Assembly (NCBI GenBank): GCA_944349735.1
Contig: CALVNM010000009.1
Span: forward strand, 1-47,315
Length of the DNA: 47,315 nucleotides
Origin: an uncultured Clostridia bacterium
GTDB taxonomy: Bacteria; Bacillota; Clostridia; Christensenellales; DTU072
Direction of reading: 5' to 3'
In this document: piece by piece, positions 1,658 through 29,100 of the stretch
How the letters are laid out: every line of letters begins with the position of its first letter
Numbering within the stretch: the first letter of the stretch is position 1
Notes under the pieces: generated by a model
What the model was told of the DNA's origin: nothing
Database searches by the model: none
What the model saw: only the letters and a program-made list of their open reading frames with translations
Translations under genes and position numbers: made by a program

Positions 1658-3610
1658 ATGTCGACTTCTTACGGAGCTTATGCCGGAACGGTATTGAAAA
1701 TAGACCTCACGTCGCGTACGGTATCCGATTATCCCGTAAGCGACGAAGACCGCAGGCTTTTCCTCGGCGGGAAAATACTCGCCGCGAGGATAATGAATGA
1801 CTTTATCAAAGGCCCCATGGATCCCTACGGCGAAGAAAACGTCCTCGTCGTGTCGTCCTGCCCTCTCAACGCCACGGGCTGTCCTTCGTCGTCGCGTTTC
1901 AACGTAAGCACCGTTTCTCCGCTTACGGGACTTCTCACGAGCAGTAACTGCGGCGGAAGTTTCGGATGCGCCCTCAAGCGCGCGGGATACGACGCGCTCG
2001 TCATAACCGGAAAAAGCGAATCTCTTATCTATCTCGACATTACGCGCGACGGCGTGGAATTCAAGGACGCGGAGCATCTCAGAGGCAAAAAAACCATGGA
2101 TACCCAGCGTTCCATAGGCGGAAAAAGCAGTAAGCTCGTCATAGGCCCCGCGGGAGAAAATCTCGTAAGATACGCCTGTGCCGTAAGCGACGAACGCGCC
2201 GCGGGACGCGGCGGCGTGGGCGCGGTCATGGGCTCCAAAAACCTCAAAGCCATCGTCGTGACAGGCACGAAAAATCCCGCCGTATATAACGAAAAAGCGC
2301 TTCGCAAGGTAAAAGCCAAATGGACGAAAAGACTTAAATCTCATCCGCTGACCGGAGAGCAGCTCCCGCGTCTCGGCACCGCCGCGCTTATCGCGAGCAT
2401 GCAGCAGAAAAGACTGCTCGCCACCAAAAACTTTACCGACGGAAGATACGAAGGCTACAAATCCATTACCGGAGAAGAGCTTGCCGAAAAATTCCTTATC
2501 CGTAACAAAGGCTGTATTTCCTGCCCTATCCGATGCGCCCGCGTCGTCGAAGTGAACGGCGAATGCGTCAAAGGTCCCGAAGTAGAAATAATGGGACTTA
2601 TGGGCGCCAATATCCTCAACGACGATCTCGGCGACATAATCCGTTGGAATTACGAGATGGACGAACTCGGAATGGACACGATCTCCGCTTCGGGCACGAT
2701 CGCTTTCGCAATGGAACTCAAAGAGAAAGGGATGTGGGACTCGGGACTCGAATTCGGCAAGACCGATAACATTTCCGAAGTGCTCGAAGAGATAGCGTTC
2801 CGCTCGAGCGAACGGGGCAACAGGCTTGCCGAAGGCGCGAAAAGGCTTTCGGACGAATTCGGCGGCGAAGATTTCTGCATACAGGTCAAAGGCATGGAGC
2901 TGTCGGCATACGAACCGCGCGGCGCGGTGGGACAGGGACTGGGTTACTCCGTAGCCAACCGCGGCGGCTGTCACCTCAACGCAGGTTACGAAGTTGTCGT
3001 GGAAGGTCTGGGACTCACGATAAACCCCTACACCACCCACGGCAAAGCCGAAATCGCGGTCATGTTCCAGAATCTTATGGAAGCGGTGAGCGCGGGCGGC
3101 AACTGCCTTTTCACCACTTATGCGTTCTTCCCGTTCTTCCTGTTCAAGCGTCCTAACAGCTTCCTGTCCAAGACCGTAAACAAAGCGCTCCCCTATCTCG
3201 GGGGACCCCTGCACGTCATAAACAAATATCCGCATCTCGCGCATATACATCTTACGGCGATGCTCCCGCACACCAAAGCGCTCGAAGCTGCTACCGGCAT
3301 GAAAATAACCATGGGCGACCTTATGCGCATCGGAGCGCGCGGTTTCAACCTCGAACGAATGATAAACGCGCGCATGGGCGTTTCGGCAAAGGACGACAAG
3401 CTCCCTAAACGCCTTACCGAAGAAGAACAGGTCCCCGGAGATCCTCGCACAAAGGTTCCGCAACCTCTTCTCAAAAAGAAATTCTATTTTGCGCGCGGCT
3501 GGGACGAGGACGGCAAGGTCAAGCCGAAGACCGCGAAGTACTATTCCCTGGACGCGCTCGACGACATCGGCGCACGCCGCTCGGACGCGGAGGCAAATAT
3601 CGGTAAATAA
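1658..3610 (+). CDS. aor: Aldehyde:ferredoxin oxidoreductase family, tungsten enzyme
   Basis: 650 residues, normal length for the family, which oxidises aldehydes with ferredoxin using a tungsten bis-pterin centre and one [4Fe-4S] cluster. Visible hallmarks are the pterin-binding N-domain with GGSFGCALKRAGYDALVITG (~99-118) and RAAGRGGVGAVMGSKNLKAI (~180-199). The cluster ligands are C286-x2-C289-x3-C293, with a candidate fourth ligand C483. The start has a GGAGGA site four bases upstream. It is the first gene of the cofactor operon, and its stop overlaps the MoaD-like gene. The substrate cannot be read from sequence. Placement with a tungstate transporter and cofactor genes supports tungsten rather than molybdenum. 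Members with other names (GOR, FOR, WOR) cannot be excluded. Confidence 0.93.
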   Translation: MSTSYGAYAGTVLKIDLTSRTVSDYPVSDEDRRLFLGGKILAARIMNDFIKGPMDPYGEENVLVVSSCPLNATGCPSSSRFNVSTVSPLTGLLTSSNCGGSFGCALKRAGYDALVITGKSESLIYLDITRDGVEFKDAEHLRGKKTMDTQRSIGGKSSKLVIGPAGENLVRYACAVSDERAAGRGGVGAVMGSKNLKAIVVTGTKNPAVYNEKALRKVKAKWTKRLKSHPLTGEQLPRLGTAALIASMQQKRLLATKNFTDGRYEGYKSITGEELAEKFLIRNKGCISCPIRCARVVEVNGECVKGPEVEIMGLMGANILNDDLGDIIRWNYEMDELGMDTISASGTIAFAMELKEKGMWDSGLEFGKTDNISEVLEEIAFRSSERGNRLAEGAKRLSDEFGGEDFCIQVKGMELSAYEPRGAVGQGLGYSVANRGGCHLNAGYEVVVEGLGLTINPYTTHGKAEIAVMFQNLMEAVSAGGNCLFTTYAFFPFFLFKRPNSFLSKTVNKALPYLGGPLHVINKYPHLAHIHLTAMLPHTKALEAATGMKITMGDLMRIGARGFNLERMINARMGVSAKDDKLPKRLTEEEQVPGDPRTKVPQPLLKKKFYFARGWDEDGKVKPKTAKYYSLDALDDIGARRSDAEANIGK

Positions 3611-3858
3611 TGGTAACCGTAGAGTTTTTCGGTCTGTACCGACTTAATTATCATATGAAAAGCGTCGAGGTGGAAGCTTCCACCGTAAAAGAGCTGTTCA
3701 AAAAACTCTACGAAATAAACCCCTTCTACTCCGTTAAAGAACTGAAACATTCCATAGTCATAGTTAACGACGTGAATTTCAACGACCTCAAGAAGTACCG
3801 TACGCCTTTGAAAGACGGCGATCGCGTACTTATAATGAGTCCCGCGTCGGGAGGATGA
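3610..3858 (+). CDS. moaD: MoaD/ThiS-like ubiquitin-fold sulfur carrier
   Basis: 82 residues. It has the beta-grasp pattern with a central VKELFKKLYEINPF helix and the tail DGDRVLIMSPASGG, ending in the Gly-Gly that is adenylated and thiocarboxylated in this family. The start is the ATG within TAATG, sharing one base with the AOR stop, so the two are translationally coupled. The MoeB/ThiF-like protein encoded divergently upstream is the natural activating enzyme. MoaD donates sulfur to the pterin within molybdopterin synthase, but the MoaE partner is not in this window. MoaD-like genes beside AOR genes are common in tungsten-enzyme clusters. Confidence 0.88.
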   Translation: MVTVEFFGLYRLNYHMKSVEVEASTVKELFKKLYEINPFYSVKELKHSIVIVNDVNFNDLKKYRTPLKDGDRVLIMSPASGG

Positions 3859-3859
3859 T

Positions 3860-4345
3860 ATGTATACAGCCGCAATACTTACGATGAGCGACGCCTGTTA
3901 CGCAGGCAGACGGGAAGACGGCGCTACGCCCGAAGTCGGTAAACTTCTCCTTTCTTCCGGTTTCGAAGTCAGGGAAACGGGACTTCTGCCCGACGAAAAA
4001 GACCTCATCGTCTCCGAACTTAGAAGTTTAGCCGCTAAAGGTTACGATTTGATCGTCACGACGGGCGGAACGGGATTCTCGGAACGCGACGTGACGCCCG
4101 AAGCGACACTCGCGCTCGGAGGAAGAAACGTCCCCGGAGTCGCGGAAGCCATGCGATCAAACTCCGCGAAATTCACCCCGCGCGCCATGCTCAGCCGCGG
4201 CATATGCGTGATATTCGGCAAAAGCGTTATAATAAACCTTCCCGGCTCTCCGAAAGCGTGCGTCGAAAATCTCTCGTTCGTTCTCGAGCCGCTCAAACAC
4301 GGCATCGACGCCTTGAAAGGCACCGTTACGGAGTGCGCGAGATGA
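3860..4345 (+). CDS. mogA: MogA/MoaB-type molybdopterin adenylyltransferase
   Basis: 161 residues, typical length. The family adenylates molybdopterin before metal insertion. It shows VTTGGTGFSERDVTPEATL (residues ~72-90), the MPT-binding loop with the conserved Asp, and the later INLPGSPKAC motif (~124-133). The start at 3860 follows GAGGA after the moaD stop. The gene overlaps the next one by four bases (ATGA). MoaB and MogA are close relatives and cannot be separated with certainty by eye, but the presence of moeA next door fits the MogA role. Confidence 0.88.
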   Translation: MYTAAILTMSDACYAGRREDGATPEVGKLLLSSGFEVRETGLLPDEKDLIVSELRSLAAKGYDLIVTTGGTGFSERDVTPEATLALGGRNVPGVAEAMRSNSAKFTPRAMLSRGICVIFGKSVIINLPGSPKACVENLSFVLEPLKHGIDALKGTVTECAR

Positions 4346-5544
4346 TGAACGTTATCCCCTACGAAAAATCCGTCGCTCTGCTTGCCGATGCCTTCCGCGA
4401 GATCCTTTCCGTCGAAAAGGTAGCGGTCAAGGACGCATACGGTCTGATTTCCGCTCGAGACGTATTCGCTGTAGGCTCGATTCCTCCCTTCGCTCGCTCT
4501 ACCGTAGACGGTTACGCATTGTCCTATAGGGACGCCTCCGCGGCTTCCCCGTCGGTACCGTCGCTGCTTACTCTCAAAGGCGAGGTACGCATGGGCGAAG
4601 TCAACGCCTTATCTCTCGAATCCGGAGAATGCTGTTACGTTCCCACCGGCGGCATGCTGCCCGCGGGCGCGGATTCCGTACTGATGATCGAAGACGCCGA
4701 AGTACTGAACGGCGAAGTTTACGTTTCGCGCGCCCTTCGTAAAGGCGAAAACGTCCTCGACCGAGGCGCTGACGTCAAAGAAGGAGATGCGGTGCTTCGC
4801 TCGGGATGTCGGATCTCTTCCGCCGTCATAGGCGTGCTGCTCTCCATCGGCATCACTACGATAGACGTATTCAAGCCGCTTACTTACTACGTGGTTTCTA
4901 CGGGAGACGAGTTGGTATCGCCCTACGACGAATGCCCGTTAGGCAAAATCAGGGATACCAATACCTCGATATTGGTATCCGAATTATCGAAAATAGGAAC
5001 TGTCTCCGGTTCGGTTCTCGTCCGCGACGACTATCCCGCGCTGCAAGAAGCGGTGCGCCACGCGCTGTCTTGCGCAGACGTAGTCATACTCAGCGGAGGA
5101 AGCTCCGTGGGCAAATCCGACTTTACTTCCGACCTCTTCCGCGAATTCGGTTCGATACTTTTCGGCGGAGTCGCCGTAAAACCCGGCAAACCCACCCTCG
5201 CCGCATGCGCGAAAGGCAAATTGCTCGTAGGGCTTCCCGGTCATCCCATGGCGGCATATGCCTCCTGCCGACTTATCCTCGTGCGCGCTTTATTCAAAGC
5301 CTGCGGCTCCGACCTTCCCGCTCCTATAGTCTGCCGCGCTTCCAAAAATTTCCCCGGAGGCAAAGGAAGGACGGCGGTGATCCCAGTGAAGTTACGTAAT
5401 TCCCCCGAATACACCGGAGCAGAACCTCTCTTCTATCAGTCCGGTATGCTGTCCGTGATAAGCTCCGCGGACGGCTTCGTTCTTCTTCCCGATCACGCAG
5501 AGGGCGTCGACAAGGACGCTCCCGTGGAGGTTTATTTAATATGA
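4342..5544 (+). CDS. moeA: MoeA, molybdopterin molybdenum/tungsten transferase
   Basis: 400 residues from the ATG at 4342, which overlaps the mogA stop as ATGA; an in-frame upstream start would lie deep inside mogA and lacks a site. MoeA inserts the oxyanion into adenylated pterin. Diagnostic motifs in order: STVDGYAL near residue 53, the GDELV loop, then IRDTNTSIL, SGGSSVGKSDFTSD, and the LPGHPMAAY motif of domain III, with a C-terminal domain IV. It is one of two MoeA-type proteins in the operon; the second carries an extra domain. Such pairs occur where both molybdenum and tungsten are handled, though assigning metals here would be speculation. Confidence 0.92.
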   Translation: MMNVIPYEKSVALLADAFREILSVEKVAVKDAYGLISARDVFAVGSIPPFARSTVDGYALSYRDASAASPSVPSLLTLKGEVRMGEVNALSLESGECCYVPTGGMLPAGADSVLMIEDAEVLNGEVYVSRALRKGENVLDRGADVKEGDAVLRSGCRISSAVIGVLLSIGITTIDVFKPLTYYVVSTGDELVSPYDECPLGKIRDTNTSILVSELSKIGTVSGSVLVRDDYPALQEAVRHALSCADVVILSGGSSVGKSDFTSDLFREFGSILFGGVAVKPGKPTLAACAKGKLLVGLPGHPMAAYASCRLILVRALFKACGSDLPAPIVCRASKNFPGGKGRTAVIPVKLRNSPEYTGAEPLFYQSGMLSVISSADGFVLLPDHAEGVDKDAPVEVYLI

Positions 5545-7424
5545 GAGACAGATACATATCCAACAATCCGCTCGAGAAAATAGAAGATTATCTCGCCCTT
5601 TTCCGCGGCAGAACCGCGGGCGTCGAGATCATACCCACCGAAGACGCGCTCGGAAGAGTATTGAGCCGCGCGGTCTACGCCAAACTTTGCGATCCCGTAT
5701 ACAATGCCGCCGCCATGGACGGCATAGCCGTTTCCTCGGAAGCTACCGCCGCGGCAAGCGAAAAAAATCCTCTCGTCCTTAAAGAAAACGAGGACTTCGT
5801 CTATGTCAATACCGGCAATTCCGTGCCCTCACGTTTCGACGCGGTGATAATGATAGAGGACGTTATCGATATCGGATGCGGCAAGGTAGAGATCACCTCT
5901 CCCGCAGGCTCCTGGCAGCACGTCCGCGTAAAAGGCGAAAGCATCGTCGCGGGCGAAATGATACTCCCTTCCCGCCGCAGGATACGCCCCGAAGATCTCG
6001 CCGCTATATATGCGGGCGGCAATACGGAAGTAGAAGTTTTCCGCATTCCCTGCGTAGGCGTCATCACCACGGGAGACGAGATGGTACCGCGCCCCGAAGA
6101 CGTAGGCGAAGGCAAGCTTCTCGAGAGCAATTCCAAACTTTTCTCCGCATTGATAAAGGAATGCGGAGGTCGCGCGAAAGTTTACCCCACCGTAAGCGAC
6201 GATCCCGACGCGCTCACCGCGGCTATAAATAAAGCCGTCGACGAATGCGACGCGGTCATAGTCAATGCCGGAAGTTCGGCAGGAACGAAAGACTTCGCCG
6301 GGAAAGCCGTCTCCGCTCTCGGAGAAATATATCTCCACGGTCTCGCCGCAAAGCCGGGAAAGCCGACAATACTCGCTACCGTACGCGGTAAGCCCGTCGT
6401 GGGCATACCGGGGTATCCGGTATCGGCGTACATCGCGTTCGGTCTGACGGTTAAGCCCGTCGTCGAAGCGATGACGGGATGCTCCGCCGAAAAAGAAGAG
6501 CGCACGACGGAAGCGATCCTCACGCGCAACGTGGTAAGCTCTCTCAAAAACACCGAATTCGTCCGCGTATCCGTAGGAAAGGTAAACGGTAAACTCGTCG
6601 CCACCCCTCTCGAGCGCGGTGCCGCCCAGATAATGAGTCTCGTAAAAGCTGACGGGTTCCTGACCGTAGACCGCTATTCCGAGGGTTACGCCGGCGGCAG
6701 CAAGGTGGAAATAGCCCTGCGCAAGCCGCTAGGAGAAATCGAAAAGAATCTCGTCGTCATAGGCAGTAACGATCTTATTATAGACGTTATCGGAGAGCAC
6801 GTGCCTCTGACCTCGGCGCATGTGGGAAGCATGGGCGGAATAGTCGCCATGCAGAAAGGAGAATGCCACATCGCGCCGATACATCTTTTGGATCCCGAGA
6901 CCGGAGAATACAATATTCCCGCCGTCAGAAAATACTTCCCGAACGAAAAAATGGTCCTGATCAAAGGCGTAGGCCGCACTCAGGGTCTCATGCTTCCCAA
7001 AGGAAACCCCTTAGGCATAACCTCTTTCGAGGACGCGGTAATGCGCAGATTAAGGTTTGCCAACCGTCAGCGCGGAGCGGGCACTCGTATACTGACCGAT
7101 TATCTTCTCGCGGGACTCGGTAAGGACGGAGCCGCGCTCAAGGGCTACGACAAGGAATTCTCCACCCATCTTGCCGTCGGCATGGCGGTAGAGAGCGGCG
7201 CCGCCGATTTCGGCATGGGAGTAGGTTCCGCCGCGAATACTCTCGCACTCGATTTCATACCCGTGTACGACGAGGAATACGACTTCCTCGTACGCGAATC
7301 CGACCTCGGAGACGAGCGCGTACGAAAATTTGCCGATTACATCGTAAGCGCGGATTTCCTCGCCAAGCTCAAAGAGTTCGGAGATTATACGGCTCCGCGC
7401 ATAGGAGAGATCGTCAGGTGTTAG
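5541..7424 (+). CDS. MoeA fused to a periplasmic-binding-protein-like domain
   Basis: 627 residues, much longer than plain MoeA (~400). The first ~400 residues carry the MoeA pattern: AAMDGIAV near residue 57, GDEMVPRPED, NAGSSAGTKDF and IPGYPVSAYIAF. The last ~220 residues start at VVIGSNDLIIDVIGEH and form a binding-protein-like unit (HVGSMGGIVAMQKGE, then GAGTRILTDYLL and FGMGVGSAANTLALDFIPV). This resembles the PBP-like domain found fused to MoeA or to ModE-type regulators. No signal peptide is present, so it is cytoplasmic and may sense oxyanion or cofactor precursor. It overlaps moeA by four bases (ATGA) and the next gene by seven. Confidence 0.88.
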   Translation: MRDRYISNNPLEKIEDYLALFRGRTAGVEIIPTEDALGRVLSRAVYAKLCDPVYNAAAMDGIAVSSEATAAASEKNPLVLKENEDFVYVNTGNSVPSRFDAVIMIEDVIDIGCGKVEITSPAGSWQHVRVKGESIVAGEMILPSRRRIRPEDLAAIYAGGNTEVEVFRIPCVGVITTGDEMVPRPEDVGEGKLLESNSKLFSALIKECGGRAKVYPTVSDDPDALTAAINKAVDECDAVIVNAGSSAGTKDFAGKAVSALGEIYLHGLAAKPGKPTILATVRGKPVVGIPGYPVSAYIAFGLTVKPVVEAMTGCSAEKEERTTEAILTRNVVSSLKNTEFVRVSVGKVNGKLVATPLERGAAQIMSLVKADGFLTVDRYSEGYAGGSKVEIALRKPLGEIEKNLVVIGSNDLIIDVIGEHVPLTSAHVGSMGGIVAMQKGECHIAPIHLLDPETGEYNIPAVRKYFPNEKMVLIKGVGRTQGLMLPKGNPLGITSFEDAVMRRLRFANRQRGAGTRILTDYLLAGLGKDGAALKGYDKEFSTHLAVGMAVESGAADFGMGVGSAANTLALDFIPVYDEEYDFLVRESDLGDERVRKFADYIVSADFLAKLKEFGDYTAPRIGEIVRC

Positions 7425-8338
7425 ACGGATACGGAAGAAACATACGATACGCACGCATTTCGGTAACGGATCTGTGCAATCTGAAATGCCGATATTGCAA
7501 ACCCCGTCCCGTCCCCAAACTCAGGCACGAAGACCTCTTGAGCGTGGACGAGATAATCACCCTCGGGACGGACCTTTGCAACAAAGCGGGTTTTACCAAG
7601 ATCCGCCTTACGGGCGGCGAGCCGCTCGTGAGGAAAGGGATCGTGCCGATAGTACGCGGAATATGCGCCGTATGCCCAGATGTGGGCATTACGACCAACG
7701 GCATACTGCTTGCGACATACGCGGAAGAACTGCGCGACGCGGGTATCCGGCGCGTCAACGTAAGTCTGGACACGACGGACGAAAACGTCTACCGTGCAGT
7801 CACTGGCGGCGATCTCCGTAGCGCTCTCGCGGGCATAGAAGCCGCGCGGGCGGCGGGACTCGGACTGAAGCTGAACGCCGTACTGCAACGCGGCGTGAAC
7901 GACGATCCCCTGCCGCTCATGGAATACGCGGAGTCCGTCGGCGCGGAGCTCAGAATGATAGAGATGATGCCTTTCGCTTCCACTCTCCGCTATGCGGGCG
8001 AACGGGCGCTGAACGCGGAAGAATGGGCGCGTTCGCTCGGTATGGAGCCTTCGGGCGTCGACGGCAAGGTGCGGAAATACTCTTATCGCGGGCACGAAAT
8101 AGGTATCATCGCGGCGCTGAGCCGTAACTTCTGCGCCGAATGCAATCGCATACGCATCACCTGCACGGGCATGCTGCTGCCCTGCTTACACGGCGCGCAG
8201 GCGTATCCGTTGCGCGACAGGATAGGCACGGAAGACTTTAAGGAATATCTGCGTTACGTACTCGCGCTCAAGCCGTCCTCTCACGGTCTCGGCGAAGGCA
8301 ATTATCAGAAAATAGATATGGGAAGCATAGGAGGATAA
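7418..8338 (+). CDS. moaA: MoaA, GTP 3',8-cyclase (radical SAM)
   Basis: 305 residues, slightly short for MoaA. It opens the cofactor pathway from GTP together with MoaC. The radical-SAM cluster motif is C20-x3-C24-x2-C27 (CNLKCRYC), followed by RLTGGEPLVR. The second [4Fe-4S] cluster motif CAEC-x13-C lies near residue 240, and the chain ends SIGG, the C-terminal Gly-Gly needed in MoaA. The start is a GTG at 7418, seven bases inside the preceding gene, preceded by AGGAGAG. The ATA/TTG alternatives nearby are not better placed. Confidence 0.93.
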   Translation: MLDGYGRNIRYARISVTDLCNLKCRYCKPRPVPKLRHEDLLSVDEIITLGTDLCNKAGFTKIRLTGGEPLVRKGIVPIVRGICAVCPDVGITTNGILLATYAEELRDAGIRRVNVSLDTTDENVYRAVTGGDLRSALAGIEAARAAGLGLKLNAVLQRGVNDDPLPLMEYAESVGAELRMIEMMPFASTLRYAGERALNAEEWARSLGMEPSGVDGKVRKYSYRGHEIGIIAALSRNFCAECNRIRITCTGMLLPCLHGAQAYPLRDRIGTEDFKEYLRYVLALKPSSHGLGEGNYQKIDMGSIGG

Positions 8339-8803
8339 ATGGAACTCAATCATTTCGACAATAACGGCAACGCCCGCATGGCGGACGTAAGCGGTAAAGA
8401 CGTCACGTTACGCGAAGCGGTGGCAAAGGGAAGGATAAAGATAAGCCCCGCCGCTCTCGCGCTCATCGGGGGCGGCAATAAAAAAGGCAACGTACTCACC
8501 ACGGCTACGGTAGCGGGAGTACTCGCCGCGAAGCGTACCTTCGAAGTTATACCGATGTGCCACGTCGTGGCACTCGACAACGTGGAAATAAACTACGAGC
8601 TTCGTGCGGATTCGATAGAGATAACGGCAAAGACGGTCTGCCACGGCAGGACGGGAGCGGAAATGGAAGCGCTCCATGCCGTAAGCGTGGCGGCGCTTAC
8701 GATATACGACATGCTGAAAGCCGCCGACAAAAGCATGACGATAGAAAACGTAAGGCTCGTGTCGAAAACGGGCGGCAAAAGCGGCGACGTGTTCAACATA
8801 TAG
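8339..8803 (+). CDS. moaC: MoaC, cyclic pyranopterin monophosphate synthase
   Basis: 154 residues, normal length. It converts the MoaA product to cPMP. Conserved features are the VSGKDVTLREAVAKGRIKI entry, the PMCHVVALDNVEINY catalytic segment (residues ~64-78), and GRTGAEMEALHAVSVAALTI followed by YDMLKAADK with the conserved Asp and Lys. The ATG directly abuts the moaA stop, with AGGAGGA upstream inside moaA, so the pair should be translated together. Confidence 0.94.
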   Translation: MELNHFDNNGNARMADVSGKDVTLREAVAKGRIKISPAALALIGGGNKKGNVLTTATVAGVLAAKRTFEVIPMCHVVALDNVEINYELRADSIEITAKTVCHGRTGAEMEALHAVSVAALTIYDMLKAADKSMTIENVRLVSKTGGKSGDVFNI

Positions 8804-8827
8804 AAACCGATAAAAAAGGAGAACTCC

Positions 8828-9292
8828 ATGGAAAAAGCAACGGTCATCGCCGTAAACGTCAGCGAAATAAAAGGCACTTCCAAGCACACCGTACCTTATG
8901 CGGAATGTCTCGTGAACTACGGTATAGCGGGCGACGCGCACGCGGGACCCGGCAAACGGCAGATAAGTTTACTCGGCGTCGAGAGTATCGAGAACTTCAA
9001 ACGCGACAAAAAAGACGCGGTGGGTCTATGCGAAGGGAAATTCGCGGAAAATCTCACCACGCGCGGGATATGTCTCTATAAACTTCCCGTAGGCACCGTC
9101 CTGCGCATCGGAACGGCCGTACTCAAAGTGAGTCAGATAGGTAAGAAATGTCACGCGGACGAAGGCTGCGAAATAGCGCGCAAATACGGTATCTGCGCGA
9201 TGCCGAGAGAAGGTATATTCTGTACCGTCGAGGAAGCGGGCGTCATCCGCGCCGGCGACGAAATAACAGTCGAAAATTCCGTCAGCCGTTGA
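8828..9292 (+). CDS. MOSC domain protein
   Basis: 154 residues, a stand-alone MOSC domain. MOSC domains bind molybdenum or tungsten cofactor and move sulfur via a conserved Cys; here it is likely the Cys in IGKKCHADEGCEI (residues ~100-112). Other signs are NYGIAGDAHAGPGKRQISLL near residues 30-50 and the ENLTTRGICLY segment. It follows moaC by 24 nt with AAAAAGGAGAA as binding site and closes the operon. It may store, carry or mature the pterin cofactor for the AOR. Its 3' end overlaps the converging tupC-like gene by 11 bases. Confidence 0.9.
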   Translation: MEKATVIAVNVSEIKGTSKHTVPYAECLVNYGIAGDAHAGPGKRQISLLGVESIENFKRDKKDAVGLCEGKFAENLTTRGICLYKLPVGTVLRIGTAVLKVSQIGKKCHADEGCEIARKYGICAMPREGIFCTVEEAGVIRAGDEITVENSVSR

Positions 9293-9953
9293 CGGAAAGA
9301 AACTTTTTAAGTTTGTCCGAACGGGGATTTCCGAACGCTTCCGCGACGCTCCCCTTTTCTTCGACCCTGCCTTCGTCAAGGAATATCACTTCGTCGGCGA
9401 GCCTTCTCGCCTGCGCGGGCGAGTGTGTGACTATCACTATCGCGGGACGCGATCTTACAAAATAATCTTTCAAAAATTTCTCCGCTTTTTCGACGGCGTT
9501 CACGTCCATGGCGGCGGTGGGTTCGTCGAGGATAAGCAATTCGTGCTCCTCCATCATAAGTCTTGCGAGCGCGAGCTTTTGCGTTTCGCCTCCTGATAAC
9601 TTCTTAGCGTTCTTCTTACTCATTTCTCCTAACCCGAAATCTGCAAGGAGTCGCCGCGCCTTATCCCTTATCGCTTTCCTTCCGCGCAAAGGCTGCCCGA
9701 GAAGCATATTTGCCGTCAGAGACATATCGAAAGCAAAACTTTTCTGCGGCATATATCCGGTTTCGGGTTTCTTGCCGTCGTATATTATTTCTCCGTCGCC
9801 TTTCAGGACACCGGCAAGTATTCCGGCAAACGTCGATTTACCGCTGCCGTTACTTCCCATAACGGCGTATACCTTACCCCTTTCGAAACGCAGTTTATCA
9901 ACGTCGAGCACCGTGCGTTCGCCGTATTTTTTCGTGACGGATACTTCAACCAT
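9282..9953 (-). CDS. tupC: Tungstate ABC transporter ATP-binding protein
   Basis: 223 residues. Walker A is GSNGSGKST (residues ~33-41), the signature LSGGETQKLALARLM, and Walker B LLILDEPTAAMD, followed by a switch His (VTHS). It lacks the extra regulatory domain of ModC or PotA-type ATPases, as expected for TupC. It overlaps the permease gene by eight bases, with start at 9953. Substrate assignment rests on the TupA/TupB neighbours and the cofactor operon. Confidence 0.9.
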   Translation of the reverse strand: MVEVSVTKKYGERTVLDVDKLRFERGKVYAVMGSNGSGKSTFAGILAGVLKGDGEIIYDGKKPETGYMPQKSFAFDMSLTANMLLGQPLRGRKAIRDKARRLLADFGLGEMSKKNAKKLSGGETQKLALARLMMEEHELLILDEPTAAMDVNAVEKAEKFLKDYFVRSRPAIVIVTHSPAQARRLADEVIFLDEGRVEEKGSVAEAFGNPRSDKLKKFLSVNG

Positions 9954-10653
9954 TTCTTTTTTTCAACCCCGCCTGAAGCGCCGAAGCGATAACGTTAAGT
10001 CCGAGCACTATAAGCATGAGGATAATGCCCAGAGCGAGCGCCAGAGAAAATTGTCCCATATTGTAATTCAAGGCTATGGCTGTAGTCATGACGCGCGTTT
10101 TGTGTAGAATGTTGCCGCCCACTATCTGTACCGCGCCCACTTCCGCGATACTGCGCGAAAACGCGAAAAGATATGTGGCGACGAGCTGATATTTGGTCTC
10201 GTTCACGGCAAGCAACGCAATTTTCGCCTTATTTAGTCCCATTCCGGCGGCGGTGTCGCGCATGGCGTCGTATGCGGGAGCAACGGCAGTCTCGGTGAAA
10301 CCCGCGACGACGGGGGTTATGAGTATGACCTGGGCTATCACCATAAGTTCAACCGAATACATCAAGCCGAGCTTGCCGAAAGGTCCCGTTCCAGAAAAAA
10401 GCAGATATACGAGTATTCCCACCGCTACGGCGGGAAGCCCCATGAGCGTTCGCATTATCAGCACTACTATGCGCCGTCCCGGGAAGCGCGCCACTCCCAC
10501 GAGCGCACCTATCGGCACTCCTATGAGCATGGCGTACAGCGAGCTTTGCACGCTCATTTCCATCGTCGTCGCCACTATCTCGTTGAGCAACGTATTGCCT
10601 TCGCCCATCAGGGCGAAGGCTTTCTCGAATGCGGCGGTCACGTTACTCCACAT
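9946..10653 (-). CDS. tupB: Tungstate ABC transporter permease
   Basis: 235 residues with about five to six membrane helices. The cytoplasmic coupling loop is near AYDAMRDTAAGMGLNKAK, and the family segment FSRSIAEVGAVQIVGGNI is seen near residues 165-182. It starts three bases after the tupA stop and overlaps tupC, so it is one transcription unit. ModB-like permeases share the fold; the neighbours favour TupB. Confidence 0.9.
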   Translation of the reverse strand: MWSNVTAAFEKAFALMGEGNTLLNEIVATTMEMSVQSSLYAMLIGVPIGALVGVARFPGRRIVVLIMRTLMGLPAVAVGILVYLLFSGTGPFGKLGLMYSVELMVIAQVILITPVVAGFTETAVAPAYDAMRDTAAGMGLNKAKIALLAVNETKYQLVATYLFAFSRSIAEVGAVQIVGGNILHKTRVMTTAIALNYNMGQFSLALALGIILMLIVLGLNVIASALQAGLKKRNG

Positions 10654-10656
10654 AAA

Positions 10657-11694
10657 TTATGCGGCTTTGGTAAGGCTCTCGTTAGCCATAGTAAGACAGG
10701 CACCCATACCCTGCCCCGCGGAAATATACCAGTTCCCTTCGGGGGCTTCGGAGGTCTTGCCGCCGGTAATGTCTATCGAGACCAATTTAAGTCCGGTAGC
10801 CTTCCAGAGATTGACTTCGGCGGTGTGCGTGCCCGACGCGTCTCCGCGGGACACGAAGTTGTATCCGCCCGCGGCTATGGCTTTGAATGCGTCGGTGATG
10901 TTCGCGGCGTTCTTTACGCCTGCAGGATCGGAAGCGGGTCCTATCAATACGAAATAGTTATACATAAAACTTATGCGCGCGGGATATACGGCGTCGTACG
11001 CTTCGCCGCTGAGTCCGGCTACTTCTCTTGCGTATCCCTCGTCGATGAAGGCTTTTTCCTGAGAAGCGGAATGCACGAGCAGAAGGTCGGCGTTACCGTC
11101 TTTCGCCGCGCTGATCGCGGCGCCGGTGCCCGCCGAGGACACCTCGATATTCCAACCCGTAGCTTCCTCGAATTGCCCTTCGAGATAGCCTAAGAGTCCG
11201 GTATCGTTCACGGAAGTCGTGGTCGAAATGCTTATGACGTTATCGCCCGTACCGGAATAGGCAAGCGCGCTCGCCTCGCCTTCGTAAACCTTCGCGCCGT
11301 CGATGAGATAGAAAAGCGCTTCGTTATAGTCGGCTTTGCCGAAATCAGCTATCAACGCGCGAGTAGAGGGCATGCTCATCCATTTGATAAAAGCGTCTGC
11401 TCCCGCCTCATTGATAACGACGTCCGTACCGGCAAACGCCTCGGCGTCGCCGTCCACCGCTATCATCGAATATGTATTCTTCAGTGCGTCGTCCTGTTCG
11501 TACAGAAGGGTAAGATTGGGTATCTTGTCGCCTTCGGCGTTTCTTTTGAACGAAAGGTATGTGCCTTTGTCGCTCAGAACGTAAGCGCCGTATGACGTCG
11601 CGCCGTCATCGTTATCCTTACACGCGGCGAGCGCCGCCACTGCCGTACAGAGGACGGCAAGGCACAACAAAACTGTAATAAATTTCTTTTTCAT
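10657..11694 (-). CDS. tupA: Tungstate-binding lipoprotein, apparently circularly permuted TupA
   Basis: 345 residues with a signal peptide and lipobox ALAAC (Cys25). The order of the two TupA halves is reversed. Residues ~35-140 (YVLSDKGTYLSF, LKNTYSMIAV, ADFGKADYNEALF) match what normally ends TupA. Residues ~153-345 match what normally begins it: TTTSVNDTGLLGYL at 158-171, the GNADLLLVH segment at 200-208, MYNYFVLIGPASDPAG, SRGDASGTH at 282-290, and WYISAGQGMG at 322-331. The chain stops at the point where canonical TupA would continue into its Y-T-L-T-D-R-G-T-Y-L-A-like segment. All oxyanion-contact motifs appear to be kept, so it should bind tungstate. A strong GGAAAGGAG site lies in the riboswitch stem. 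Confidence 0.88.
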   Translation of the reverse strand: MKKKFITVLLCLAVLCTAVAALAACKDNDDGATSYGAYVLSDKGTYLSFKRNAEGDKIPNLTLLYEQDDALKNTYSMIAVDGDAEAFAGTDVVINEAGADAFIKWMSMPSTRALIADFGKADYNEALFYLIDGAKVYEGEASALAYSGTGDNVISISTTTSVNDTGLLGYLEGQFEEATGWNIEVSSAGTGAAISAAKDGNADLLLVHSASQEKAFIDEGYAREVAGLSGEAYDAVYPARISFMYNYFVLIGPASDPAGVKNAANITDAFKAIAAGGYNFVSRGDASGTHTAEVNLWKATGLKLVSIDITGGKTSEAPEGNWYISAGQGMGACLTMANESLTKAA

Positions 11695-19389: not shown

Positions 19390-20110
19390 TCACTCGTCCG
19401 ACCATCCTTCGAACGTGACCGCGTTCTCTCGGAAATCGTTCTGCACACGGATGTCGTTGCGTAACGGCGTATTGGTCTTAATGGCGATGTTGTTTAGCAG
19501 GAATTCGTTGCCGAATATAGATACTTCGGAATCGAAAGAGCCGATATATACCGCCGCGCCGCGCGTATTGCGGAAACTGTTGTCGTTGAGAGTTATGTCT
19601 CCTGTAGCCGCATTGACTCCCATATTGTTGTAGTAGAATTCGGAATCGGATATGTTTACGGCTCCGGATTCGAGATAGACCGCCGTGGAATAATAACGGA
19701 ATACCGACTCCTTGATCTCTATCACTCCGGAATATCCGGTTCTTGCCCTGATACCCACGGAATCAACGATGATATTGGTACCGGAACCGATAAACTCGGC
19801 GCGCGAGACCGTGACGGAACCCGCGCCGGAACCTACGCTTACGGAAGCTGAGGAAGCCTTGGGCGCGAAGGATACTATATCCAGAGTCACGTCGCCGGCA
19901 TTAACGGTTACCGAGCCGAATACCACGGCTATCTTCTCTTCCTGCGCGGTAAGATCGTATGAGCCTATAATAGCCACGGAAGCGTTCTTCGTAACGGTTA
20001 TGTCTCCGTAATTACCCGCCATAAGATACCAACGTACCGTGTCGCCGTCCTTCAGTGTAGCGAGCGCCGCGTCGAGAGCGGCTTTATCGGAGATGACCAA
20101 GGCTCCTGCG
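19390..20110 (-). repeat. Parallel beta-helix region at the C-terminus of giant A
   Basis: Encodes the last ~240 residues. Short coils of ~22 residues repeat with N/D-x-S/F-x-x-N and small hydrophobic positions (IEIKESVFRYYSTAVYLESG, NISDSEFYYNN, TLNDNSFRNTRGAAVYI, SIFGNEFLLNNIAI). It follows a helix-rich cap (SDKAALDAALATLKDGDTV). This is typical of polysaccharide-binding or lyase-like NosD/pectate-lyase folds. Confidence 0.75.
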
Positions 20111-23100
20111 CTGCGCGCCACTATCTCGTACGTGCCGTTTACGACGGTGATGTGGTAATTCTTGTTGGAAGGTATCGCATTGAACCTGAGGTCGTAGCTG
20201 CCTACCATGTGCTTATAAGTCAGCTCGCCGCCCGTCCAGCCTATGTCGAGATCTCCGAAAATGGCGATCGTGTCGGTACCTACCAATCCCGGCTCGGACG
20301 GATCGACGGTCCAAGTCACGGTCACGGAAGAGTCGAAAGGCTTGAGCTGTTCGAGATATTCCGACTCAACCTTATTGATATTGACGGTTATCTCGCGCGG
20401 CGTGATGATCACTTCGCGTTCTATAAGCGTTCCGAGAGTGGGCACTCCGGGTTCTCCGGTATTGTAGCTGGGCCAGTTGTTGCCGCCGTAGACCTTGACG
20501 GTTACGAGATAAGTACCCGCGTCGCGTATCTTGGAACCTACGGGCAGCTGCTCGCCGCTCTGAGTCTTATATATAAATTCAAAGCGTATGTCGGTATTGG
20601 TCACAGGCTCGTCCCCTATCACCACTATGGCGTCGCGGTAAGTTCCGTTATATTCCATCTCGCCCTTCACCGAATACTGTATCTCGGGTTTGACTATATG
20701 GATGACTATCGTGAACTGCATTCCGGCGTCCATGGTATAGTTGCGCTGATCTTCCACGAAAGTCATTCTCATTATATAGTGACCGACGTTGATGGGACGC
20801 AGTACGGGATTATACGCGGGATTGGTGTTTTCGGGATCGTACGAAGCGTAGATAAGTTCGTAACTCGCGCCCTGCGGCACTCCGCCGATCATCGGAGAAT
20901 GCTCGTTGCCGTCGTAGGTGTAAGTCACCTGCTTGACCATTACGGAGCTTTCTCCGCCCGATCCGTTGACGTAGGTATATTCGCTTTCCGTTATCGGCAC
21001 GTCGTCGCCGGTATGGAAATAAATATCCTCTGCGTAAATGACGCATTTGTTGATCCTGAGAATGTATGTCACCGAACCGGTTATGTTGTAATCGTCGCCC
21101 TCCGCTACGGTGATACGGATACGGTAATCGGGCGCGCCGTCGAGCTTGACCGCGACGGGTTGCTCGTTCTGCCAGCTGAGACCTCCGTCGATACTGTACT
21201 GGATCGAATATCCCTGGAGCGGTCCGTAATTTCCGTCCTCTCTAAGGAAGTTGCCGATCGTGAAGTACTTGGTCACATCGAGAGTCTCGCCGGTATAAAC
21301 GCGGTTGAGGAAGTTGACGCCGTCCTGAGTCGTCCAGGTTATGTCTTCTTCGGTTATGGCTTTCTTCTCGAATATCACCGTCATGCTTCCGGTCACTATC
21401 TCTCCGTAAGCGTTCTTGAAGCTGCATGTCACTACATATTCGCCGGCACGGTTCTGATTTACGTTCTGCATCGCCCAGAGCGGCTGTATGCCGTTGACGG
21501 TGGCAGGCATATTGCTCGAAGTGATCGTCTGCCCGAGCGGGAAACGTACGGTCGCCATCGAGAAATCCGCCGTACGCGCTTCGATGGAAGTATAATCGTA
21601 AGTGCGTATCGGTACGGTGAAGGTCATTTCCATCTTGTCGGAATCGGGACCGTTGCCTTCGGCGTCGCCGCTGAGGTAGGGACTGTCGGAGAAGGAGAGG
21701 AAGGTATAGTTGCAGCGGAATACTGCGACCATATTCGCGAGATCGTATTCGACTCCGAGTACGTTCATATATGCTCCGTCAGCGGTGACTATGACCTTAT
21801 CCGGCAATGTGGAAGTCTCGGGGCCCGCGACGTACTGTCCCGCCCTGTTTACGCCCACGGGTATGTAATCGTAATAGAAACCGCCGTTGGTGTACTTGAC
21901 CACGGTCGTGGTAACGTTGCCCACGGTCACGCTGCTCGTCTCCTCGTTGACGGCGTATAGCTTGGGATCTATAACGATTATCGTGAAATAGATGTTGTCG
22001 AGGTCGACCGTACCGAGCGTGCCTCTCACGTTGGTATAGGTCATACCCGCTTCCACGTTGTCGATATTCGGCAGGTTGGCCGCCGTGAACGACAACGGCA
22101 CCGCCGCTATCTGACTGGTGTTGTCTGCATAATCGAAGCGGTAATAGAGCTGCGTGGGAAGCTGTTCCTCTATAGGTACGCCCTTACGCACGTACAGCGT
22201 TCCGCCGCTCAGAGGCTCCGTCGTCTCCTGTCCGTCGGGAGTTATGACCGTTATGTCGATATTTCTCGCCTTGATGGTAAACTGGATGTCCAGTTTGGTA
22301 CCGTAGACCTGCATCGAAGCGGTCACGAACATAAACTCTTCGCCTATCTTACCGGAAATTACGTCCGTTCTCTCGAGATACGTTTCGTCGTACTCCCATA
22401 CGATGTCGTGATAATTCTCCTCTATCGAGCTTCCGGTAAATTTGACGGATATGGACTCCGGGAATTTGATGTCGTACGGGTCGATGTAAAACTCGTCAAA
22501 CGCTTTCTGATAATCGATGTCGGAGCCTTCGGGTACCGCGGAAATACTCGTATATTCCACTCTGCGGTCGGTAGTCGACATCAGGAGATTGTATTGCGTG
22601 CCGAGTACTCCTGCGTCGGCGAAGAAATCGTAAGGCTCAGAGGTGTACGTTTCGCCGTTATACTCGTAACTTACTCTGAAACTTCTGATCCTTGCCGTGA
22701 TGTTACCGGTATTGGTGAGCGTTATGTCGCGCGAAAGCAACCATTTTACCTCGCTGAGATAGAGTTCGTTGCCGAGCTTAGCCGCGCCTTCCGCTTCCGT
22801 CGAACCAACGGAATAATCGTTGGCGAAAGTCACTTTGAGCGTGGAAGGCAGTTTGTAGCTCGTAAGCGCGGGATCTCCGCCAGCCACTTCATACCAGGCG
22901 TTCGCGCCTTCAGGTACGTATAGATTGGAGTTGATCGGGTCTATGGTGAGATAGTTGTTGCGTATCACGCCGGTACCGCTGACGGTAGTCAGCATAAGAG
23001 TGAAATAATTGTCCACCGGAGTGGCTGCCGTCGTAAAGCCGCGTTCCGTAGTGTAGATCGCCTGCGGCGTGCGGTCGAGATATATGACCTGTACAACTAT

Positions 23101-26100
23101 CTCCGCGCTTACTCCGGCTTTGGAGACCGTAGCGGAAACGCTGCGTCTATCTCCGGCAAGCGGCAGATCGTATACGGCGTCTTCCCATACCACGTCCACT
23201 TCCTCGAGATCCACTATTTCGCCGCTGCCGGTAAGTATTTTGCCTCTGGCGAGCGCTTTGTCGGGGATGACGGGATTAAGCGGATCGATGACCAGTTCCA
23301 CCTGACCGCTTACCGCATATCCCACGCCGTAACCGAAGCTTATCTCGTCTATACCTATCTGCTGCGTGTCGAGAGTATAGATCTTATCTGTGGTCACGCG
23401 GTTGGACTCCGCAGTCTTAGAGAAATTGACGAAGCTCACCGAAGAGGTTTCGTTACTGCTCCAATCCGTCTTGTTGAATATGATGACCGTTCTGAGTTCC
23501 TCGTCGGTAGCCGCATAATTTTCGGGATAGAACGTTATCACGCGGAAAGTCGAACCGGAAGAACCGTACACGCGGAATTCCACCTCGAAGGAAGTAGCTA
23601 TGCTCGTGTAAGTATACGGATTGAATTCGATAACGAAATCGTTGATTCCGTTGATCTCGAAGAACTCCCAACGGTCTGCCGTGAGCGTAGTGGAAACCGT
23701 CTGCCCTTCTGTCGAATATCCGCCTTCACCGTATCCCAATATGCCGAGTACGGGGATCATAAACCCGCCGAGCACGCTTATGTCGTCGTCCGTAAGCGGC
23801 TCGAATTCTCCGCTGCCGAATTCTCCGATCTCCTTATACCACGTGATGGAGGGAATCACCGGAGCGGATACCGCGAGATAATCGGAATACAAAGCGACCG
23901 TCGCGCTGTCCGTACCGAAGGAATCGGCGTCGTACACGAGGTTGACCGAAGAAGCGGAGGAATTGGAGACGATCTCTTCCATTTCCGCCAGCGCGTCCGC
24001 AGATACTCCTCTGACGGTGTCGAGCGGCAGGAAGTGTCCTTCGTCAAGCTCCGAGGGAATATCTTTCACTAGTGCGGTGAAGGGATTGTCTATGGGATAT
24101 AAAGTTTTGCTGATTTCATCCGGCAAGGCGTGAATGCTTCTGTTAAGGACGATGACGTGAAGCACGAGATACTGTTCTTCGTCGCCGTCGTCGAAGCTCT
24201 TGAGCACGGTATAGAATAGGTATTCGTCGCCGCCGTAGCCGCCGCCGTTATATCTGTACGAGCCGTCCGCCTGCGCCGTAAACGCGCCCTCCGCTCTTAC
24301 TCCGTAAGGGATCCAGGTCACGGTCTTGTCCACGCCCTCGTAAGCTCCCTGATACATGATCCTCGCGCTTAGCGGTAGATTATATGTCGCCGCGTCGTAA
24401 GGATCGATATAGTACTTGCCCTCGATATATCCGTCGGCTCCCGTATTGCTCTTGTTGAGATATTCGGCGCCGGTAGCCAGTCTGTCCGGGAATACCACTA
24501 CGAGGTTTACTCCGTTGTTGCCGTCGGGAAGAGTTATTACGAGATACAGTTCCGCCGTGGAATCGCCGAATTCGCTTCCCATCGTATGTCCGCGGTTGTT
24601 ATAAGTGAGTTCCGTGACCTCGGTCAGCCCATCGGACATATCGCGCAATTCGTATTTGATGTCGGAATCGGCGGAGAATTGATAGAATACCGAACCGAAA
24701 GACACTTTGATGTCCTTGGGCAACGTGAGCGTACCGTTGTTGGCGTCGTCGGAATACTGATCGAATACAAGTCTGTTGGCAACGATCTCGTAATCCTCGT
24801 GCGTTACCTGCCCGCCGTCGAGAGCGACCACTTCGATATAAAGATTGATCGTCTGTACCTCTCCGTTATATCCGCGTATCTCGGCGGTAGCGAACAACTG
24901 CCTCACGGCGCCTGCGGAAGTGATGGTGCCGCGTATTTTATCCGTAGAGAAGTTGCCGTTTCCGTCATCGAATTCCGGAGCAGGTTTCCAACCGTTTACG
25001 AGCGTGAAAGCTATGGAATAAGGCGATTCGTACTGAGTCGTCTGCTTCGGTATTATGACGTTAGCAAGCTTACCGGGTATTTCCTCGACGGGCATGACGT
25101 CGTATACGTTTTCGATAACGAGAGTGCCGTCGGTTATCTTATACAATCCTTCGTCGGCAGTCGAGTACCCCGTAAGTCCCACGTTCTTCTTATAGAATAC
25201 GAGCCTGAACGTGATCACCTGTCCGCCCGGCAAGGTGGTTTCCAAGGTAATGTTCCTGCCCGAAGAGAAGCGGAAGAATTCGTATTTGATGCTCGTCACG
25301 ACCTGACCCGCGCTGATGAAAACTCCGTTTGCACCCGTTTCCGCATTCGCCGCGCGCCATACGAGATTGTCGTATTCGACTTCGCCGCTGCGGAGATAGC
25401 GCACGGTAAACGCGGTGGGCAGGACATAACCGTCCTGAGTCTCGTAGAGCGGGTTGCCGTTCTCGTCGAAAGTCTCTATGCCGAGCGAGTAATCCGTCTC
25501 GGCGAGCACGTCTCTAAGGAAATTGAGCGTTACGGAGAAGCTCTGAACGCAGCTTCCTTCGGTGAGTTTCTCCACCGTGAATCGTATGGTGATGTAGTTA
25601 TCGGTGACCGTTATATCGGTGTCCGAAGCCGAAGGCGATTTCCTGCCGTAGACGAAGTCGTCGAAATCGTCGCGCAACGTGTACACGGCGGGATTGACCA
25701 TCGAAGAATCGGAGAAGGACAGCGATATGGCTCCGAACAGATAATTCACATATTGCGAAGGAGTGCAGAGTCCGGTGACCTCGGAACCGTTTTCGTCATA
25801 ATAAGTGCCGCGCAAAGTGTAGAACTTATTGAAAGTGATATTAATCGCGTTGGTTCCGTTCGTAACGAGTTTACCGTCCTCTCCGATCGAATAACGCACG
25901 ATCTCGATATTGGAATCGACGGGTATCACTCCCGACGCGTCGGGCTTGGTGAAGTCTGAGGAAAGCTTATTGAAATTCATTCCCGTTATGACTCTTGCCG
26001 CGATGCGGAAGCCGAGACTTACTTCCTGCTCGAGCGGAGTGCCTTTCTCGATTACTCCGCGCAAGATGATTATGCCGCCTTCGTATTTCCCGGCATTGTA

Positions 26101-29100
26101 ATATTCGGAGCTGCCGAGAGGACTGGCAAGCGCGTTGCAGAATTCTTCGAGATTAAGCCAGTCTATCCTGACGCCCGTACTCATGGAGCCGTCGCGGAAA
26201 CCTATGCCTACGGTAGTCACGCCGGCGATCAGCTTATCGTATAGCTCGCTGCTCTCGGGGGTATAAGTATCGACGTCCACATACGGCAGCTTTGTACCGT
26301 CCGGCAAAGTGTATGTGGGTATGGAGCCGGTATCGGCGTCCGCATACAGACCGTAGATCCTGTCGTTCACTACCGTCTTCTCGTCGAATACGAGGTAAAG
26401 TTCGATGATCTGGTCGAGCATTCCGGTATCGGACTCGCCCATTATGCCTGTCTGCACGATATACGTGCCGCCTCCGGGATTAGGAGTAAATTGGGATGCC
26501 GGAACGCCGTCAGGGGTATACCAATCCGCATTATACGTACTGTCGGGGATACCGCTGTCTTCCGCGAATTCGAGCGTGAGCCTTGCGGGAAGCTTAAGCT
26601 CATCGTAAGGATTGAGGTTCTCTATATAATATCTCTTGTACGCTACCGGAGTCTCGGTATCGTCGTCGGCTATCGGGTTGCCCTCCTCGTCGTATTTATA
26701 GACGGTTATCCCTTCGAAGGGGGTATCGTCGTCGTTGAGCATCACTACGTTCTCGTAGGAACCGGAACGGTTGAGGATAAGCATCGTAAGAGTCTGGGTA
26801 AGTTCGCCGTCGCCTATCACGCCGTAAACCGTGAGGTAGGTTTCCTCCGCAAACGCGTTGAGTATCCTGCCGTCTCCGGATATTATGTTGTCGTTCGCGC
26901 CGTTGCGTCCTGTCAGCCAACTTACGGGATATTCTCTCATGACCGTCACGCCCTGATATTCCACTTCGACGAAAACGCTCCCGGGAAGATACAGATTGGA
27001 GACTGCTTCCGAATAAGGATCGAAATAGAAGTAACTGCCTTCGACGGTACCGTTCGCCGTAAAGCTGGCGAGAGAAGCCCTGATCGGATTAGTTACCGAT
27101 TCGACGATATTGCCGTCGTTGTCGGTACGCACGTAAGTCACCGCGATAACGGCGTCGGAACGCGTTCCGATAATTCTCTTGGGACATATCACGTGTACCG
27201 AGACCGCCTGCTTGCCCACGATATTATCGCCGAAATACGCCGTGGCGAATTCGTCCCTTCCGTTATTGAGAGGCCACGAGCCGTCTAAGGAGACATAGTT
27301 CGCTACGGGATAATTCCATTCGAGAGGTATATTGTAATATCCGTCGCACAAAGGATCGGTAGAGGCTCCTTCCTGCGGCTCGGAGCCGATTATACGGTAA
27401 TGCCCGCTCTTGAAGTAGATGCGTACTTCGTTCTCCGCAGTCGTGGATGTGGGGATCGTATAAGTCGAAGTGACCAGCGCGTCCACGGTATAATATCCGT
27501 TATTCTCGGAATTTATCTTGATGTAATCGACTTCTTTGGCTAAAACCGTGACCACGAGTGCGATCTTTAGCGTCTGATACTCGGCTACCACCACGTATTC
27601 TCCGCCTTTTGCCGTGATGAGCTTTTCTTCGAAGCCCCATTCAAATTCGGGGAGCGTTATCGTCTCCGTGGAATTACTGCCCGGGTAAGAATAGAACGTA
27701 ATGTATAACGCGGACGACTCGTCTATATCCGCAGTCGCTGGGTCGTCCTCGCGGTAACGTATAGGATAATAATTGCCGCCGGCTGCTTCCGCCGCCGTCT
27801 TACGGAGAGAATATTCGTAAGGATCTATGGTCACGCGCGCAACGATCGGTATCTCGTTGTAATAGTCGCCCGCGTTCACCTTGATCACTCTTCCGAGGAC
27901 GGTCATATTGATCTCGAAACGGGTCTCGGCTATACTTCCCTTGCCTATAACGAGATAATATGCCGCCGGCGCAAGTCCCTGCAAAAGCTGACTTACGTTA
28001 GAATTGTTATACGGGAACGCCGTGCCGTCCTTGTATTCCAGCACATAAGGCAACGCGCCGTATTTTCCGTTATTGTATATGACGGAGACCGTATCCGCAA
28101 AAGGCTTCTCCTTAGAAGGATCCACGGTAAACGAATAGCTCTCGAGAGCGGAAACGACGCTCGTTCCGTTCACGTTGTCGGTGAACTGCATCGTATAGGT
28201 CACGGTCTGACCGAACAAACTCGCCACGGGATGATATTCGTAAACGCCGGTAACGAGGGTCACGGACTCTTCGCTGTAAGTAAGCTTCATTATAAGCGTG
28301 TTGCCGCCTATCGTCACCGCCGCGCTGTCATACCAAACCGCCTCGTATATGCTATTCCAGACCGCGTTGTCCACCTTACCGCCGGATACGGGATTGTAGA
28401 CGACAACGGCGGGCACGGAGTATTCGGACGCGTCGAGAGTAAGTTCGGGAGCCTCGAAACCTATGCGGAGCCTGAGTCCCGCGCTTATCGATTCGAGATT
28501 GAACAGATCCAGTAAAGGATTGCTATTGTCGTCGTCCTTCTGCGATACGAGTCTGACCGAAATGTATCCGTTCTCCAGCGAGACGCTTGCGTCCGCAGAT
28601 ACTAACTCGTATATTTCGGCAATCGACGAGCCGTCCCATACGTCGGTTCCGGTAAGCGCGCTCGCTCCGTCAAGCAGGACTTCGCGGGCGATAACGTATT
28701 TTATACCGAGCGCTTTATAGTCCACGTATATCTTCCCGGCGTCCGCAGGATCGGACACTACCGTAAGATAAGGCGTACCGTTGATGGCGAAATCTATGGC
28801 GAAATAAACCTCGCCTCCCGTCTCGTACACATATCCGTTCATGTTGAGAACGTCGCTGACTTTGAGAGTACAGGCGGTATTTTTGCCCGTGACGTCACCG
28901 ATGAATATACCCATGAACGCCGAAATATCGTTGAATTCCTTGCCTTGCGCGTTGAATTCGCCGCTTACTTCCACAAGCACGGTATCGGGGACCACGGGAT
29001 TCCTGTATTGAGCCAGTTCCGCTTCGGACGGAAGCTCTATGTTAAGTCCGGATTCGGGTACGGAATTGATCGTGAGATCCATGGAAAGCACCTCTTCTCC

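Follow-up and report, generated by a model that had tools for sequence, protein, structure and literature searches.

The tupA locus

The window, by which we mean the whole 47,315-nucleotide stretch of Clostridia DNA analysed, carries a tupABC operon on the reverse strand, headed by a permuted tupA gene (345 aa; 10657..11694, -) that was recognized from sequence, structure and profile matches. The permease gene tupB (9946..10653, -) and the ATPase gene tupC (9282..9953, -) lie directly downstream. TupB matches NF038017 above its cut-off and the TupB family NF041773 at 135 bits, below the cut-off of 320, and the name TupC was given by position. A predicted molybdenum/tungsten cofactor riboswitch (RF01055; 11685..11800, -; 67.5 bits, E 3e-14) overlaps the tupA start.

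Convergent to tupABC is a set of cofactor synthesis genes (5541..9292, +) consisting of a moeA-PBP fusion, moaA, moaC and a MOSC gene. An aldehyde:ferredoxin oxidoreductase (AOR) gene (1658..3610, +; PF01314) lies about 7 kb from tupA and is the sole AFOR_C (PF01314) match in the source genome, a draft of 114 contigs that is 83% complete. The cofactor genes and the sole AOR are convergent neighbours of the operon, and a search of the incomplete (83%) genome for PF00384 gave no match; the AOR is therefore a likely tungsten user, and the transporter likely serves to supply it. Read by eye, this tungsten island (1658-9292) also contains a moeA-like frame ending at 5544, as well as frames 3610-3858 and 3860-4345, which we take to be MoaD-like and MogA-like. 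Elsewhere in the window, two very long open frames of 3775 and 3165 aa are adjacent to each other (19390-30717 and 30810-40307, both -).

Order of the parts in the window TupA

The tupA gene is a single open frame encoding a TupA in which the C-terminal part precedes the N-terminal part. The first-pass annotation had read the halves as reversed, and the database searches bear this out. Using phmmer against the Desulfovibrio alaskensis TupA structure 5my5, residues 146-338 aligned to chain positions 20-184 (i-E 8e-27) and residues 32-119 to positions 183-262 (i-E 9e-7), so that the two pieces are out of order and together span nearly the whole canonical protein. The same swapped order was obtained with 3lr1, 3muq and 3kn3, although the second piece on its own then matches weakly (i-E 2.2, 0.07 and 0.004, respectively). 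In a profile scan of the source genome, profile positions 178-253 were found upstream of positions 13-175 in one frame. The best Pfam and NCBIfam matches both fall on the second half of the protein; for the NCBIfam TupA model NF041772, the better of two stretches pairs residues 150-339 with profile positions 13-174. The score of 145.5 bits against this model is under its 400-bit equivalog cut-off, a threshold that is uninformative here because no genome attained it in three genome scans (0/396, 0/391 and 0/398). A full-length colinear match to a canonical TupA was not seen; the order test therefore classes the protein as a permuted variant and not as a plain member of the family. A protein search of the source genome gave this single TupA match.

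The chain can be divided into four sections. A lipoprotein signal peptide read from the sequence (residues 1-25; 11620..11694, -) ends with the lipobox LAAC at residues 22-25, and its retention in front of the permuted chain agrees with the earlier annotation. The canonical C-terminal part follows (residues ~37-129; 11308..11586, -) and includes D42, the equivalent of binding-site D170. A joining segment (residues ~130-153; 11236..11307, -) then leads from the old C-terminus to the old N-terminus; this segment, which had not been pointed out before, is foreign to both canonical halves. The canonical N-terminal part comes last (residues ~154-345; 10660..11235, -), with TTTS at residues 158-161, H208, R283, T289 and GQGMG at residues 327-331. 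As had been noted, the TTTS segment starts at residue 158, and the chain ends soon after GQGMG, 14 residues further on. Taken together, these observations confirm the swapped order and support the reading of the window gene as a naturally occurring, circularly permuted tupA.

Predicted structure, binding site and selection

The AlphaFold2 model of the window protein reached a mean pLDDT of 85.6 and a pTM of 0.78; it was built from an alignment of 18 rows, ten of which represent half of a canonical protein. A canonical relative (L023), modelled from 5 rows, reached 73.3 and 0.69. In the permuted model, helices and strands follow the order of the canonical model, circularly shifted. Sequential Foldseek alignment to 3lr1 covered 196 columns for the permuted model (TMt 0.58) and 271 columns for the canonical relative (TMt 0.81), and a shorter sequential alignment is what would be expected of a permutant. 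Judged from confidence scores and element order, the fold may close.

In D. alaskensis TupA, the oxyanion site is formed by T9-T11, S12, H59, R118, T124 and D170, as published (PMC5517513). The window protein retains all of these residues (TTTS and the equivalents of H59, R118, T124 and D170). D42, the D170 equivalent, comes from the transplanted part; therefore, a working site needs both parts. All eight site residues are kept in 25 of the 27 permuted proteins described below, the exceptions being the protein of genome G371 and a sequence cut before D170.

We estimated dN/dS with our own NG86 script for the window gene and five relatives. Although many dS values are near saturation, the ratios are low for the first part (residues 37-136: 0.037, 0.067, 0.063 and 0.086, the fifth pair being saturated) and for the second part (residues 154-345: 0.038, 0.14, 0.10, 0.11 and 0.13), and both are under purifying selection. 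Segment 137-153 is under weaker constraint than either part (0.14-1.7). The operon, the riboswitch, the nearby AOR gene, the selection and the full site make the window gene look functional. The protein probably binds tungstate; its sequence does not tell a preference for tungstate over molybdate. Decay of the gene is a conceivable alternative, as one permuted relative, that of G371, has lost the residues equivalent to S12 and H59 and is not accompanied by a tupBC match. For the window gene, low dN/dS, the full site, the operon, the riboswitch and its standing as the sole TupA found in the genome make decay very improbable.

Distribution and break points

The first-pass annotation had proposed a search for other permuted members, which would show whether the order is a lineage feature. 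Loci were fetched as best matches, not as a random sample, and six genomes of the class sample were chosen as suspicious. The 125 distinct TupA frames in these loci divide into 92 canonical, 27 permuted and 6 partial ones; the permutation is thus a lineage feature, and the chain has been opened in several places. That as many as 27 distinct proteins, encoded in separate assemblies, show the permuted order within a single frame also rules out an assembly chimera or a frame artefact, an explanation that the fragmented and incomplete state of the source genome might have invited and that we now regard as extremely improbable.

In the genus of the window, a permuted TupA is present in 4 of 13 genomes; 8 others have no match, and 1 matched at the signal peptide only. 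For the family, the figure is 8 of 40 (7 of type I and 1 of type II, as defined below), with 1 canonical TupA, 2 matches at the N-terminus only and 29 genomes without a match; 6 further family genomes show the order of the window protein at 67-88% identity. The 18 strong matches in the taxonomic order of G598 comprise 1 permuted TupA, 15 canonical ones and 2 pieces at contig ends that keep the canonical order. The class sample gave matches in 50 of 391 genomes, at least 4 of them permuted (G000, G444, G598 and G755), and the phylum sample in 188 of 398, which, among the matches listed, are near full-length single pieces; permuted forms may also occur elsewhere.

Positioned on a canonical TupA profile (281 positions, from 71 canonical sequences), the break points fall in three successive loops, a result that is new relative to the single permutant described before. 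Type I proteins (n=7, all of family f1, the window included) break at profile positions 193-196. Type II proteins (n=17; ten from f11, two from f3 and one each from f1, f34, f58, f107 and a Lachnospiraceae record) break at about 209-214, apart from two ragged starts (201 and 204) and one end lost at a contig edge. Type III proteins (n=3, from a single f3 genus) break at 236-239. Mapped through the 5my5 alignment to D. alaskensis numbering, with lobe limits from PMC5517513, types I (~162-165) and II (~183-185) open in lobe B, and type III (~208-212) opens in lobe A, just past the return crossing at Y201. In the window model, the type I loop precedes strand 38-42, the type II loop runs from helix 43-50 to strand 62-65, and the type III loop from strand 72-80 to helix 96-106. 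In several type II proteins (L036, L037, L205 and L019), the lipobox and the first strand are separated by low-complexity sequence with a high content of Ala, Pro, Glu, Thr or Ser.

tupB and tupC follow tupA in the permuted loci checked for neighbours, with the exceptions of G371, which has neither, and of L201 and L206, which lie at contig ends. The lone permuted TupA of G371 (L046/L123/L203) has a long branch and Ala/Asp at the S12/H59 positions, and is possibly repurposed or decaying. A riboswitch match was obtained in 13 of the 18 permuted loci scanned and in both canonical loci scanned; in one of the 13 (L116), the riboswitch heads a moaC-moaA-MOSC-tupABC run. The other five permuted loci (L019, L117, L118, L124 and L202) gave no match, some of the operon heads possibly lying outside the locus.

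Joining segment and phylogeny

Canonical TupAs stop 2 to 17 residues past the LF motif (one pattern artefact aside), whereas permuted ones continue through the joining segment. Segments from 23 of the 27 permuted proteins were cut to 19-24 residues and compared with shuffles; L008 and L032, which duplicate other sequences, L046 (pattern not found) and L201 were not included. Likeness is clear for type I against type III (z 6.3) and for outlying against core type II (z 10.3), moderate for core type II against types I (z 4.2) and III (z 3.5), and weak for type III against outlying type II (z 1.8). The type I segment shows no likeness (z 0.7) to that of outlying type II, a set of three proteins. 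Looser trimming gave z 7.3 for III-I, 4.4 for III-II and 5.0 for I-II. This likeness favours few joinings, perhaps one.

TupA trees were built from 25 of the 27 permuted rows (without L046, a long branch, and L201, cut short) and a chosen subset of far canonical rows; one row set was additionally without L047, L119 and one L135 row, and clade tests were run without L207, which falls with family f16. All 25 permuted rows lie on one side of a branch with weak support (71/56), inner nodes are weak, three rival groupings were not rejected (p-AU 0.28-0.46), and parsimony requires a single change between canonical and permuted order. The TupB and TupB+TupC trees included 23 of the 27 permuted loci (L008, L046, L197 and L201 were not entered). 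In the TupB+TupC tree, core type II (11 rows) stands outside a group of 19 (support 100/99) made up of near canonical rows, types I and III and outlying type II, and parsimony requires three changes. A single clade of permuted carriers was rejected by TupB (p-AU 0.01) and by TupB+TupC (p-AU 0.0008), and a single type II clade by TupB+TupC (p-AU 9e-9); a single clade of near canonical rows was not rejected by TupB+TupC (p-AU 0.14). The canonical L021 is placed differently by the TupA and TupB+TupC trees, the TupA data giving a p-AU of 0.053 under the L021+L038 grouping. Since canonical TupAs branch within the permuted ones in the TupB+TupC tree, the origins may be one or several. The conflict between the trees would mean either that the order changed more than once, that tupA alone moved between operons, or that canonical order returned.

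It is possible, if doubtful, that core type II, outlying type II and types I/III were permuted separately from canonical ancestors. The rejection of a single permuted clade and of a single type II clade, the three changes on the TupB+TupC tree, and outlying type II segments that are unlike those of type I and only weakly like those of type III would all be expected from such a history. It is harder to reconcile with the likeness of segments between outlying and core type II, between types I and III and between core type II and both of these, or with the TupA tree, which groups the 25 permuted rows, albeit weakly, and needs one change. A single joining followed by re-opening at other loops, the near canonical group reflecting either a putative return to canonical order or the exchange of tupA alone between operons, is a serious candidate that we would place a little below even. 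It would account for the likeness of the joining segments, for the nesting of the near canonical group among permuted carriers in the transporter trees and for the discordant placement of L021; against it, the TupA tree is poorly supported at its inner nodes, and a near canonical clade survives the TupB+TupC test.

As for the mechanism, tandem duplication followed by loss of the outer halves had been suggested as the simplest route. The idea is plausible but unproven, as no fused dimer, tandem A-B-A-B gene or partly trimmed intermediate occurs among the 125 TupA frames. Shared segments whose ends differ could be explained by a tandem-fused ancestor that every lineage resolved in its own way, although no such gene was found. 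Separate canonical tupA-like frames do occur as near neighbours, two in one genome (L103, L113, L115 and L135). Fission followed by fusion was rejected, as the fetched loci contain no separate half-genes except for a broken canonical gene, namely the canonical-order tupA of the draft genome G1299 (L177), which is in two frames, and contig-end pieces (L025, L152, L153 and L206). In the class sample, split or partial matches also came from G700, where two neighbouring frames keep the canonical order, from G461, where the match is spread over two contigs, and from G575, where it is partial.

Discussion

Taken as a whole, the best explanation, and one we hold with high confidence, is that the window tupA encodes a working, lipid-anchored tungstate receptor with a circularly permuted chain. 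The old termini would be bridged by the short segment, the new termini would lie in the lobe B loop before the Y-x-L-S-D-K-G-T-Y strand, and both parts probably fold as one two-lobed binding protein. Tungstate would be held by TTTS, H208, R283 and T289 of the second part and D42 of the first, then handed to TupB/TupC, and the metal would most likely be used by the nearby AOR. The molybdenum/tungsten riboswitch presumably governs expression. The permutation would alter which lobe is continuous and may place the lipid anchor on lobe B instead of lobe A, and its origin may have been a tandem duplication with subsequent trimming.

Among the open-licence PMC papers listed in our searches, none described a circularly permuted TupA, in line with the first-pass annotation. 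The novelty is limited by TpMglB-2 (Tp0684), a permuted ABC-transporter binding protein already published in another family, a Type I glucose-binding lipoprotein for which a 'Type Ic / Cluster Bc' was proposed (PMC4990184). The window protein falls outside this group, which has a Type I sugar-binding fold, since its best hits are Pfam PBP_like_2 for the sequence and TupA structures for the model. According to the available part of that paper, the permuted part of TpMglB-2 is too divergent to align well (13% identity), its authors allow for an origin from another gene, and one topology is described; by contrast, both parts of the permuted TupA are plainly TupA-homologous, and three openings exist. 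The same authors suggest that permutation is perhaps linked to membrane tethering (PMC4990184). Types I and II would fit this idea because the anchor shifts to lobe B, whereas type III would not because its chain starts in lobe A. With canonical TupA (5my5, 3lr1; PMC5517513), the window protein shares the sequence of both parts, the oxyanion-site residues and the operon; it differs in that its parts are swapped, its chain opens in lobe B, a joining segment is present and the anchor sits on the opposite lobe. A permutation-by-duplication model has also been applied to the permutants of swaposin and DNA methyltransferases; intermediates are stated to be documented for the methyltransferases (PMC3320104), whereas none was found for the permuted TupA.

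One could imagine, as a tentative reading, that a single joining made tupA readable as a circle, that Clostridia opened this circle at three successive loops, and that at least one lineage went back to canonical order, so that the chain ends would still be moving around one working protein. Most of the natural circular permutations known are isolated events of ancient date. Here, canonical order and three openings occur in related, selected, operon-encoded TupAs, providing a natural experiment on how a chain can be re-cut without loss of function. These proteins allow direct tests of the order of events, of the cost of new termini and of the role of the anchored lobe. They are also split by order-bound profiles, and permuted binding proteins are natural scaffolds for tungstate sensors.
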